Below, in pieces: positions 13,025 through 33,660 of a stretch of DNA of 42,030 nucleotides. Position 1 is the first letter of the stretch, and every line of letters begins with the position of its first letter. The position numbers were made by a program, and so were the translations under genes. The notes under the pieces are model-generated. The model did no database searches and was not told where the DNA came from. It worked only from the letters and a program-made list of their open reading frames with translations. Where the stretch lies: positions 1 to 42,030 of IMG/VR virus record IMGVR_UViG_3300031999_000063; one strand, written 5' to 3'. The DNA comes from a virus.

Positions 13025-13459
13025 TTATTTATCAGATCCTTCTAAATATTTCCAATGTAGGTGTACTGCAAATGCAGACAATACTCCTGCGATAGCAGTT
13101 GCTACCCACCAATTTCTACTTTTGCGTACAGAGGCGTGTTTTTTAGCTGCTGCTACTTGTTGGTAAAGATTTTCACTAGACATACTATCGCTGTAGTTAC
13201 GCTCCTTTAGAAGTTCACTTTGCATATATGTAGTGTTTCTATCTTTAGCAACCAACATTTCAGATTGGTTTTTTAAGTCAGCACGTAAGGTGATAACTTC
13301 AATGCGGATTGAATCACACTCCTGAAGATCATCCAACATATATTTCATTAGATACTTTGGAGTGTATACCAAAGAATCTTTATTTGTTTTCGTACCGCTT
13401 TGTGAGAATGCGGTTGTAATACTGAGAAGTGTAATTAGAAATAGGAGTGATTTTTTCAT
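13025..13459 (-). CDS. Exported protein with C-terminal membrane segment
   Basis: 144 residues. A signal peptide or N-terminal anchor is evident (MKKSLLFLITLLSITTAFSQ). The middle is a charged, probably coiled segment, and a hydrophobic stretch near 116-134 ('WWVATAIAGVLSAFAV') suggests a second membrane segment. Its start lies 80 bp inside the upstream gene in another frame, an arrangement reminiscent of Rz/Rz1 spanin pairs. However, there is no lipobox cysteine after the signal, so an outer-membrane spanin is not supported. Confidence 0.65.
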   Translation of the reverse strand: MKKSLLFLITLLSITTAFSQSGTKTNKDSLVYTPKYLMKYMLDDLQECDSIRIEVITLRADLKNQSEMLVAKDRNTTYMQSELLKERNYSDSMSSENLYQQVAAAKKHASVRKSRNWWVATAIAGVLSAFAVHLHWKYLEGSDK

Positions 13460-27829: not shown

Positions 27830-28396
27830 GTTATGCGTAATGGCTACCATCCGTCCATCATATAAGTTATCTTACAATCGCCAACAAAACCTTTTTGATA
27901 ATGTAGGCAACCGACAGGAAATCCAAAAGCAAATCCGTGTTTACTTCCACCTCCCATATATACAATCTCTTTCAATCCACCGTAATCAATTACCATTTGT
28001 TGTATCTTATTGCTTTTGAAAGCCTTTGCAATCGGAACAAAAAACACAACATTGTCGGCAACAGAAAATGCTTTTTGAATAAACAAGTCATAAATACTAT
28101 ATGGTGGGTTGGTAATTATCCAATTTACTTTTTTATTCCACTCGAAAAAATCAAGTCCATCGGTTATTTCACATCGGTATTTTTCTTCGTTCTTAAATAA
28201 GTTATAAAAAGCATTTTCACCAGCAGCAGGTTCTAATATTGAGCCTTTTGCATTAAAGTAATTTACAATCCATTCAGCAGTTGTGTTTTTTGTAAATACA
28301 CTATCCGAAGCGGTTGCCTTTTCAGTTTTATTTGGTTTTGTTGGTATTCCTTTTCTACTCATAATTTATCGTTATTTAACCGCATCTACGCATAAC
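27830..28396. repeat. 10-bp inverted repeat bounding the first methyltransferase
   Basis: GTTATGCGTA at 27830-27839 and its exact complement TACGCATAAC at 28387-28396 bracket the gene 27844-28362. Complementary cassette ends of this sort are expected for integron-type cassettes; the sequence differs from the GTTRRRY core at one position. Confidence 0.6.
27844..28362 (-). CDS. N6-adenine DNA methyltransferase-like protein (NPPY)
   Basis: 172 residues. 'GSILEPAAGENAFYNLF' is an AdoMet-binding motif I (EPAAG) and 'WIITNPPYS' is the catalytic NPPY motif, in the order I then IV, so it resembles a gamma-type amino-methyltransferase. It is short and has no evident target-recognition domain, so specificity, or activity at all, is uncertain. 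It is the downstream gene of a two-gene insert on the - strand that splits rightward fibre genes from a leftward operon. It is bounded by complementary 10-bp ends. Confidence 0.75.
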   Translation of the reverse strand: MSRKGIPTKPNKTEKATASDSVFTKNTTAEWIVNYFNAKGSILEPAAGENAFYNLFKNEEKYRCEITDGLDFFEWNKKVNWIITNPPYSIYDLFIQKAFSVADNVVFFVPIAKAFKSNKIQQMVIDYGGLKEIVYMGGGSKHGFAFGFPVGCLHYQKGFVGDCKITYMMDGW

Positions 28397-28521
28397 ACGT
28401 TCTTTGCAAAAGTGGGGCTTTGTGGTTTATTAAACATTTGTACTACTATTAAACTGTGTGGGTAAATTGAACATTTGTGCCTTGAAATCCCCACCTTCGC
28501 AAAGCACCATACGTTACAGGC
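28389..28521 (-). repeat. attC-like imperfect palindrome between the two methyltransferases
   Basis: Fills most of the 216-bp gap 28363-28578. Nested complementary boxes occur in order: TAAC (28393-28396) with GTTA (28513-28516); CTTTGC (28402-28407) with GCAAAG (28499-28504); GTGGGG (28412-28417) with CCCCAC (28489-28494), separated by unpaired spacers, with a loop of about 70 nt. Two paired box sets, an unpaired spacer and a large terminal loop match the plan of integron attC sites. The core bases do not match the consensus exactly. Confidence 0.5.
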
Positions 28522-28554
28522 AATAATTTTTTTAATGTTTTTTTGCCCACGCAC

Positions 28555-28585
28555 ATTTTTAATAATAATTTTTTAAAATCAAAAT
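28555..28585. repeat. 31-bp perfect inverted repeat, left copy
   Basis: A 31-bp AT-rich sequence (begins ATTTTTAATAATAATT, ends AAAATCAAAAT) whose exact reverse complement is at 29237-29267. It overlaps the stop end of the second methyltransferase gene. A further block (AAAAAAACATTAAAAAAATTA) is also inverted-repeated outside it (about 28523-28543 and 29283-29304). Confidence 0.9.
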
Positions 28586-29238
28586 AAAAAGGTTTGTAGC
28601 CGTTCCTTACTTGCATCTGCTATATCGGTGTTCAGTTCAAAGCAAATGCAATTCCTGTTTAGGTTTTTACAAGCAACGCCTGTTGAACCACTACCTCCGA
28701 ATAAGTCAATCACCAAATCACCTTCTTTGCTAAACCCCTTCAAAATATGTTCTATCAGTTCAATCGGCTTTTGCGCTCCGTGTATCTTATCGCTATCGTG
28801 TTTTACTTTCAAAACGCTTGGCAAGTGAGTTACTCCTTCTGTCTTTTGAAATCCGTAGGTGCTTTGGTTTGCATATAAAATCAATTCGTGCTGTTTCCTA
28901 ATCGGGTTTCCCATTCCAATTTTTTGCTTATCCCAAATCAGCAGTTGAATATTTTGCCAGTCATAAAAAACCGAAAACAGCACAGGGTAAAAATTGTCAT
29001 TGCAAAATATAAAAACCCTGCCATCAGGTTTCAGCACTCTTTCAAGTTCCTTTTTTACAAACCTAAAATATCCTTCCTGTATTGATAGGTCAGCAAGGTT
29101 TTTAAATTTCTTTCTGCCAAATGAAGTAATCACAGGCGTTGAGTATGGCGGGTCAGTTATTAAAATGTCCACCGAGTTTGATGCCAATGATTTTAAACCA
29201 TCCAAGCAATCTTCATTTCGTATCTCTATCATAAGCAT
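28579..29238 (-). CDS. Beta-class DNA methyltransferase (DPPY)
   Basis: 219 residues. Near the N-terminus 'DILITDPPYS' is the catalytic motif IV; near the C-terminus 'GDLVIDLFGGSGSTGVA' is AdoMet motif I, after 'HGAQKPIELIEHIL' (motif X). The order IV-X-I defines the beta class, which methylates adenine N6 or cytosine N4. Start ATG 29238 (MLMIEI); ATG 29232 is also possible. The gene has 31-bp perfect inverted repeats at its two ends, the left one overlapping its last codons. No partner endonuclease is present, so it probably protects phage DNA. Confidence 0.85.
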   Translation of the reverse strand: MLMIEIRNEDCLDGLKSLASNSVDILITDPPYSTPVITSFGRKKFKNLADLSIQEGYFRFVKKELERVLKPDGRVFIFCNDNFYPVLFSVFYDWQNIQLLIWDKQKIGMGNPIRKQHELILYANQSTYGFQKTEGVTHLPSVLKVKHDSDKIHGAQKPIELIEHILKGFSKEGDLVIDLFGGSGSTGVACKNLNRNCICFELNTDIADASKERLQTFLF

Positions 29239-29267
29239 TTTGATTTTAAAAAATTATTATTAAAAAT
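29237..29267. repeat. 31-bp perfect inverted repeat, right copy
   Basis: Exact reverse complement of 28555-28585. It covers the region just upstream of the methyltransferase start and so could also contain its promoter; no TAnnTTTG element is visible in it. Confidence 0.9.
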
Positions 29268-29308
29268 TTCCTCCCCTTTAAGAAAAAAAACATTAAAAAA
29301 ATTACAGA

Positions 29309-29398
29309 CAGGTAACATAGGGTTTGAAGAAATAAAAAAATCTTTTCTCATTTTTATTTTGGTATTTTTTTACTTCTCAAACCCTCGTCCGTTACCTG
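29309..29398 (-). repeat. attC-like imperfect palindrome upstream of the methyltransferase
   Basis: CAGGTAAC (29309-29316) pairs with GTTACCTG (29391-29398); AGGGTTTGA (29319-29327) pairs with TCAAACCCT (29377-29385). The spacers between the boxes are 2 and 5 nt, an asymmetric bulge, and the loop is an AT-rich 49 nt. The layout resembles the R and L boxes of an integron attC site. The stop codon of the next leftward gene lies in its outer box. Confidence 0.55.
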
Positions 29399-33180: not shown

Positions 33181-33660
33181 TTAAATTATTCCTTGGTCTG
33201 CGAATGAGTAGTGAAGATTACCCGCTATTATTACATGATCTAGTATTTGTATCTCGAGTATATTACCACTATTTTTCATGTTCTTTGTCAGTTGTATATC
33301 TTGTTCGCTTGGTTGATTGTTTCCACTTGGATGATTGTGGCTAAGTATTATGCACGTGGCTTTGTTTAATAGTGCTTTTCTAAATATTACTCTCTGATCC
33401 ACTACAGTAGCTGTCATCCCTCCTTGAGAGATTAATTCAATAGCTAGTACCTTGTTAGCTCTATTTAAAAATACACAATAAAAGTGTTCTGTTTCTAAAT
33501 TATAGTAGTATGGTTTAAGCAGTTCAATAATATCTCTGCTGCTTGTTATCTTATGCTTATCTTCTGTTTGCTTTATCTGTTCCCTTCTTGCGTATTGAAT
33601 TGCTGCCTCTCTTAATTTAGGGCTAATTAGTTTTTGAAGTTGTTCGTCTGTGTAGTTCAT
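33181..33660 (-). CDS. radC: RadC-like JAB/MPN domain protein
   Basis: 159 residues. The metal-binding motif 'ILSHNHPSGNNQPSEQD' (H-x-H...D) is diagnostic of RadC JAB domains, with 'RVIFRKALLNKATCIIL' before it and 'LDHVIIAGNLHYSFADQG' after. The N-terminal HhH part of chromosomal RadC is missing; phage and plasmid copies are often short like this. RadC-like proteins are frequently found with antirestriction genes, as here near an ArdA-like gene. Biochemical role unknown. It begins with the repeated leader and MNY codons shared with the gene at 33891. Confidence 0.85.
   Translation of the reverse strand: MNYTDEQLQKLISPKLREAAIQYARREQIKQTEDKHKITSSRDIIELLKPYYYNLETEHFYCVFLNRANKVLAIELISQGGMTATVVDQRVIFRKALLNKATCIILSHNHPSGNNQPSEQDIQLTKNMKNSGNILEIQILDHVIIAGNLHYSFADQGII

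Follow-up and report, generated by a model that had tools for sequence, protein, structure and literature searches.

DNA methyltransferase genes of a phage as probable mobile cassettes of an integron-like system of Bacteroidota

Integrons (IntI, attI and attC, with their sedentary chromosomal arrays and CALINs) are the described systems closest to the locus reported here. Both are built from tandem single-gene cassettes, each with a palindromic site, and they share a cassette start complementary to the inner box of that site, GTT cores, precise excision and insertion, and a tyrosine recombinase, with what may be a counterpart of attI, at one end of the array. The differences lie in the core, which is here GTT[AG] and not GTTRRRY; in the central spacer, which in most sites has 5 nt in one arm against 1 in the opposite one and goes with a conserved C.A mismatch; in the recombinase, which lacks the IntI-specific domain and usually points into the array; and in the phage genes, which face the opposite way.

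Phage-borne cassettes with DNA methyltransferases have been described as CALINs, including some from the Bacteroidota phage Polaribacter P12002L (Qi et al., 2023; PMC9892861); Flavobacterium is absent by name from the main text of that paper. Those CALINs have classical attC sites, most of which recombined with IntI1, whereas the covariance model R1 used here finds none of its sites in P12002L and the present arrays reach about 15 cassettes. The array recombinases find their best family match among archaeal/XerA-type tyrosine recombinases (NF040815, PDB 5HXY), from which they differ by adjoining cassette arrays and, in chromosomes, by an N-terminal domain of about 75-100 aa. With IntegronFinder 2.0, Bacteroidetes, which had earlier given lone integrases only, gained a single complete integron, from Salinibacter (PMC9024848); among the 11 published attC taxon models there is none for the phylum Bacteroidetes (PMC8352920). 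No description of the present system was found in a search of published integron papers (without preprints). The analysis of a 42-kb IMG/VR virus record (42,030 nucleotides, hereafter the window) indicates, with a probability of about 0.87, that its genes MTase1 and MTase2 are mobile cassettes of an integron-like Bacteroidota system, with exchange at GTT[AG] cores by a recombinase that would act in trans on a folded strand.

The initial annotation of the window had pointed to two palindromes flanking two methyltransferase genes. The palindromes are indeed present, the sites proper spanning 28393-28516 and 29313-29394 when read on the minus strand, and both genes were recognised as methyltransferases by family matches. 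Its layout of one palindrome after each ORF was mistaken, as in the direction of transcription each gene comes after its hairpin. In minus-strand order (hairpin, MTase2, hairpin, MTase1, constant segment), the features are the following.

29394-29313, minus strand: hairpin recombination site (attC-like), TAACGGACG-AGGGTTTGA..loop..TCAAACCCT-AT-GTTA
29390-28513, minus strand: cassette A, made up of MTase2 and its hairpin site (29313-29390), with its end at TAAC core 28513-28516
29304-29237, minus strand: start of cassette A, one arm of a long inverted repeat, pairing with 28524-28585
29238-28579, minus strand: MTase2, N6/N4 DNA methyltransferase of 219 aa (PF01555, E 1.3e-31; phrog_67, E 8.2e-56)
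28585-28524, minus strand: end of cassette A, the other arm of the long inverted repeat, pairing with 29237-29304
28516-28393, minus strand: hairpin recombination site (attC-like), TAACG-TATG..CTTTGCGAAGGTGGGG..loop..CCCCACTTTTGCAAAG..GTTA
28512-27830, minus strand: cassette B, made up of MTase1 and its hairpin site (28393-28512), with its end at GTTA core 27830-27833
28362-27844, minus strand: MTase1, DNA methyltransferase-like ORF of 172 aa (phrog_799, E 4.8e-20; no Pfam match)
27833-27764, minus strand: constant phage segment with attI-like core, in gene sense AAC^TACTTATTGGCGCAAC, core GTTA 27830-27833

The boundaries of cassette A fall at cores, and the ends of cassette B are the inverted repeats GTTATGCGTA / TACGCATAAC, which enclose MTase1; the right core of cassette A and the boundary of cassette B are borne out by the related phage L299, described below. 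The long inverted repeat around MTase2, overlooked in the initial annotation like the repeats that enclose MTase1, measures 62-68 bp, with 82% identity and exact arms of 31 and 21 nt. The constant segment resembles the attI-like sequence adjoining chromosomal integrases, by a short match in which the window copy was compared by eye. Model R1 gave 11 bits there (E 6.5), which is no convincing match, and the segment was therefore not counted as a cassette site. Protein queries returned no relatives of MTase1 in the viral contigs and none of MTase2 in the genome contigs; the Rfam scan gave no match and ARAGORN no tRNA. In agreement with the initial annotation, which had seen no integrase, no tyrosine recombinase was found within the window record. 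The window also holds, on the minus strand, a serine recombinase gene amid the structural-gene region of the phage (24299-24958; PF00239, partial PF07508) and a RadC-like JAB-domain gene (33181-33660; PF04002).

The window palindromes are recombination sites. The consensus of 30 sites (A1) reads TAACGTTTnGCGG-C-TTTGTG..nAG-TTGCGG..loop..CCGCAA-TnG-CACAAA-A-CCGC-T-GTTA; in this alignment 91% of cells are paired, 139 two-sided changes occur, and covariation is 0.61, compared with 0.149 +/- 0.017 after shuffling and at most 0.152 with slid partners. R1 scored site 28393-28516 at 83.5 bits (E 1.6e-13) and site 29313-29394 at 40.1 bits (E 2.3e-5), values that are not independent, as both window sites belong to its training set. 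The independent covariance model R2, built from 91 chromosomal sites only, scored them at 76 bits (E 1.1e-16) and 29.6 bits (E 3.6e-5). By covariation and by this independent model, a conserved hairpin with two box pairs is shared with integrons; site 29313-29394 is without the inner box pairs. Folding as single-stranded DNA against shuffled sequence, proposed with the initial annotation as a check, succeeded for one site and not for the other: 29313-29394 is much stabler than its shuffles (z -5.9/-6.6), whereas 28393-28516, with its long loop, is no stabler (z about 0), so that minimum free energy alone would have overlooked it.

Evidence that these units move comes from closely related genomes. 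Over 12 kb, L299 matches the window at 97% identity, and at this locus a single different cassette is present, consisting of a 79-aa ORF and a hairpin of its own (E 1e-5; outside the training set). Identity stops at GTTA 27830-27833 and returns from CGTTA 29390-29394, and the constant segment 27764-27833 is identical in L299 as far as the core and divergent beyond it; the comparison of related phages that had been asked for thus finds the unit replaced exactly between GTTA cores. The viral contig L005 has an MTase2 relative between hairpins of the same kind in unrelated flanks, and the site upstream of MTase1 has a match in Flavobacterium phages, in an element that separates methyltransferase genes. 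L299 also contains, at 13339-13370, the sequence CGCTAACAGCACATTTGCAATGGCGGG, which resembles half of a decayed site and lies in a 200-bp insertion missing from the window. In L246 (619-962 and 3135-3704), sites stand about 222 bp apart with scant room for a gene, possibly as ORF-less cassettes.

An intact move was found in Flavobacterium phages, three of which hold 13-15 sites each, all in the same direction (script scan). Phages lillamy9-2 and lillamy9-3 are identical across the compared 12 kb save for one unit of 439 bp, relocated from 5637 to 2037 (3.6 kb) with its orientation kept; lillamy9-7, judged by alignment coordinates, looks like lillamy9-3. The donor is healed and the target interrupted, the position is ambiguous by only 5 nt (ATAAC), and the junctions have no homology beyond them. 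The moved unit comprises the hairpin and the gene and was cut at the TAAC box that lies beyond the hairpin as seen from the gene; at its far end, GAGTTATAAC can pair with the inner box. A phage cassette of gene then hairpin had been considered and was dropped on account of this cut. Excision and reinsertion are thus as precise as in integrons, both here and between L299 and the window. Phages hemulen and stinky (L010:6650-7830 vs L011:6650), in neither of which a tyrosine recombinase is annotated, are distinguished by a segment of about 1.2 kb that includes a methyltransferase gene and has its ends at TAACG cores.

Across 13 Flavobacterium phages, 58 of 101 distinct junctions, which are not fully independent of each other, lie near GTTA, compared with 11% of positions, and a hotspot at phage position ~2040, TAATATTGTAG^TTA, is a recurrent array end. 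The other 43 junctions are away from cores. Together with the mosaic nature of phage genomes and the presence of hairpins in the 5' leaders of phage genes, they would suit homologous or illegitimate phage recombination as the maker of the mosaic, the hairpins being terminators or leader structures. This origin is nevertheless highly improbable in view of the exact lillamy move with 5 nt shared only, the L299 swap from core to core, the covariation that fits recombination boxes, and the chromosomal arrays, which have the same sites with genes on the opposite side of the hairpin.

The pairing of cassette ends agrees with the logic of integrons. Within a cassette, the start and the inner box pair at a mean of 7.6-8.2 of 10 positions, vs 3.5 in shuffled sequence. 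The proportion of intervals in which at least 7 of 10 positions pair is 126/167 in viral contigs, 25/28 in Flavobacterium phages, 102/115 on the integrase side and 159/178 elsewhere in genomes, or 75-90% of real intervals vs 3-6% of shuffled ones. Tandem cassettes, each with a palindromic site as in integrons, are found as the 2 of the window, the 13-15 of the Flavobacterium phages and the 10-25 of chromosomal arrays.

The acquisition of modification genes as cassettes, first regarded as unusual for a phage, proved to belong to a system that extends across Bacteroidota and many of their phages. The model search found related sites in 77 of 119 Bacteroidia genomes and in none of the genomes of two other phyla (0/118 and 0/114; 0/232 together). 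The consensus pattern matched at least 120 stretches of genome contigs, mostly of Bacteroidota, and 84 viral stretches. A few matches, possibly contamination, fell in MAGs named for other groups, one of which has four sites.

At the end of the chromosomal arrays, which comprise 10-25 sites, stands a tyrosine recombinase, relatives of which are present in 67 of the 119 Bacteroidia genomes; 58 genomes have both recombinase and sites, 9 the recombinase only, 19 sites only and 33 neither (p 2e-8). As in integrons, the enzyme adjoins the array, in 18 of 40 chromosomal recombinase neighbourhoods (many contigs end there), in G001-G010 and in 19 viral loci. Site polarity towards the enzyme is the same in 17 of 18 chromosomal loci, with three further loci besides. 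Most recombinase genes point into the array, and a subgroup (L297, L387, L388, L389) faces away from it. Chromosomal array recombinases have an extra N-terminal domain of ~75-100 aa with predicted strands and helices (model pTM 0.48), and the four phage enzymes inspected, of 267-276 aa, are without it; a fold search confirmed a recombinase of Xer/IntI type and gave no identity for the N-terminal domain. Genome G006 (C1) contains many 224-aa tyrosine recombinase frames with near-identical scores (913714, 920708, 935696, 975761, 3124124, 3806334, 3817159), about 600 bp downstream of sites, which are possibly recombinase genes carried as cassettes themselves. On plasmids (records NZ_CP041688, NZ_CP094530; FJ012881), recombinases 84-87% identical to an array recombinase occur in Chryseobacterium, and 48% identical ones, one annotated TnpF, on many plasmids of Acinetobacter.

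These recombinases bear directly on whether the units are ordinary cassettes of IntI type (CALIN), moved by a classical integron integrase. The layout follows the same logic, and published phage CALINs with methyltransferases have sites that work with IntI1 (PMC9892861). Against this stand the cores, which had been noted from the start to deviate from the R box consensus GTTRRRY and whose outer copy fits it in only 17/269 viral and 8/170 chromosomal sites (6/71 and 14/309 in further sets). The IntI-specific additional domain is likewise missing: the span that would hold it has 69-70 residues in all 19 array recombinases, 74-77 in XerC/D and 110 in IntI. XerA-like NF040815 (NCBIfam) is their best family, and the integron integrase family TIGR02249 matches below its cut-off, in two stretches. 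The model also finds nothing in the classical-integron phage M16-3, in P12002L or in TJE1, the last represented by an 8-kb piece only. Movement by IntI is hence improbable. In a tree, the array recombinases and IntI split from XerC/D with full support, and the very long branch of IntI leaves its position among the array recombinases uncertain. In its working the system resembles an integron, without the IntI-specific domain and without GTTRRRY cores. Of the initial integron-cassette reading, the mobile, cassette-like units with a folded site are supported by the L299 swap, and a classical IntI/attC system is not; the competing idea of a different single-strand-based mobile unit was partly right, with an action on single strands that is presumptive.

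An enzyme of the IS200/IS605 family (HUH, Y1) would offer another single-strand route, by cutting beside a hairpin after a short target such as ATAAC. Insertion at a fixed motif, the lack of target duplication and the healed donor would also suit HUH chemistry, and the site hairpin has a GTTAT that pairs with the target. The chance that such an enzyme is responsible is nonetheless very small, as tyrosine recombinases stand at the array ends with the site polarity described above, and tandem cassette arrays adjoin a common attI-like site.

The integron-like system appears to be complete in some phages. A recombinase relative was identified in 54 viral loci, with sites upstream on the same strand in 19 of them, in several only a few hundred bases away; a few of these loci are copies of one contig type. 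In three viral loci, AAC^TAT and an AT-rich sequence precede the recombinase gene, like the lillamy target and the chromosomal sequences, and this short attI-like match, AAC^T plus AT-rich sequence, was seen beside integrases and in phages. These phages appear to carry the complete platform of sites, genes, attI-like site and recombinase.

The direction and content of the cassettes set phages and chromosomes apart. With the site as reference, viral contigs (141:1) and Flavobacterium phages (26:0) have their genes in one direction, and loci beside integrases (4:96) and other genome contigs (17:146) in the opposite one. Genes read from cassette start to attC, the integron arrangement, are thus the rule in chromosomes (96:4), whereas phages (1:141) and the window have the reverse. 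Phages therefore have a cassette pool of their own, presumably since an array within a phage operon has to be read together with that operon. Among 95 viral cassette ORFs, 21 matched N6/N4, 3 C5 and 3 D12 methyltransferases and one Mom, so that DNA methyltransferases make up ~28% of the sampled viral cassette genes; these shares are rough, since the viral set was drawn with one sequence pattern. For 75 chromosomal cassette ORFs, the 25 families listed, out of 29, include no methyltransferase.

In the mechanism proposed, each unit would comprise an imperfect hairpin, TAACGTTTn-GCGG-C-TTTGTG..loop..CACAAA-A-CCGC-T-GTTA, and a gene. Since the inner box has its complement at the far end, the excised unit would be able to close into an extended hairpin, probably by way of a circular intermediate. 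Exchange would take place at the GTT[AG] cores of a folded single strand, with insertion at the attI-like site at the downstream end of the phage operon. As the window has no tyrosine recombinase, the enzyme is assumed to act in trans, from the host or from another phage; some phages encode a relative beside their own array. The window phage would most likely gain exchangeable methyltransferases against host restriction. In Baltic phage isolates, plating is 1000- to 10,000-fold lower where one methyltransferase, which may lie outside the cassettes, is missing (PMC7077304); the paper mentions neither cassettes nor hairpins.

In broader terms, there is good reason to think that a second, IntI-independent integron system is common to Bacteroidota and their phages, with an XerA-like recombinase, a presence in more than half of the sampled Bacteroidia, and a separate, reverse-oriented and methyltransferase-rich phage pool, some phages having their own integrase platform; it would have been missed by attC searches. 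In the flavobacterium Riemerella anatipestifer, homology-independent uptake of aph(3')-IVb was described in a 2026 paper, in which the gene moves with a 27-bp 5' segment and a 140-bp 3' segment of attC-like folding by a mechanism 'not fully elucidated' there (PMC13148043); by analogy, this may be the same system. If so, it could account for the spread of resistance genes without homology in Riemerella. The occurrence at hairpin arrays of recombinases that lack the IntI domain would open the origin of IntI to testing. If the reading is true, cassette capture would be widespread in Bacteroidota, and lytic phages would obtain from it an exchangeable kit of genes for the evasion of restriction.
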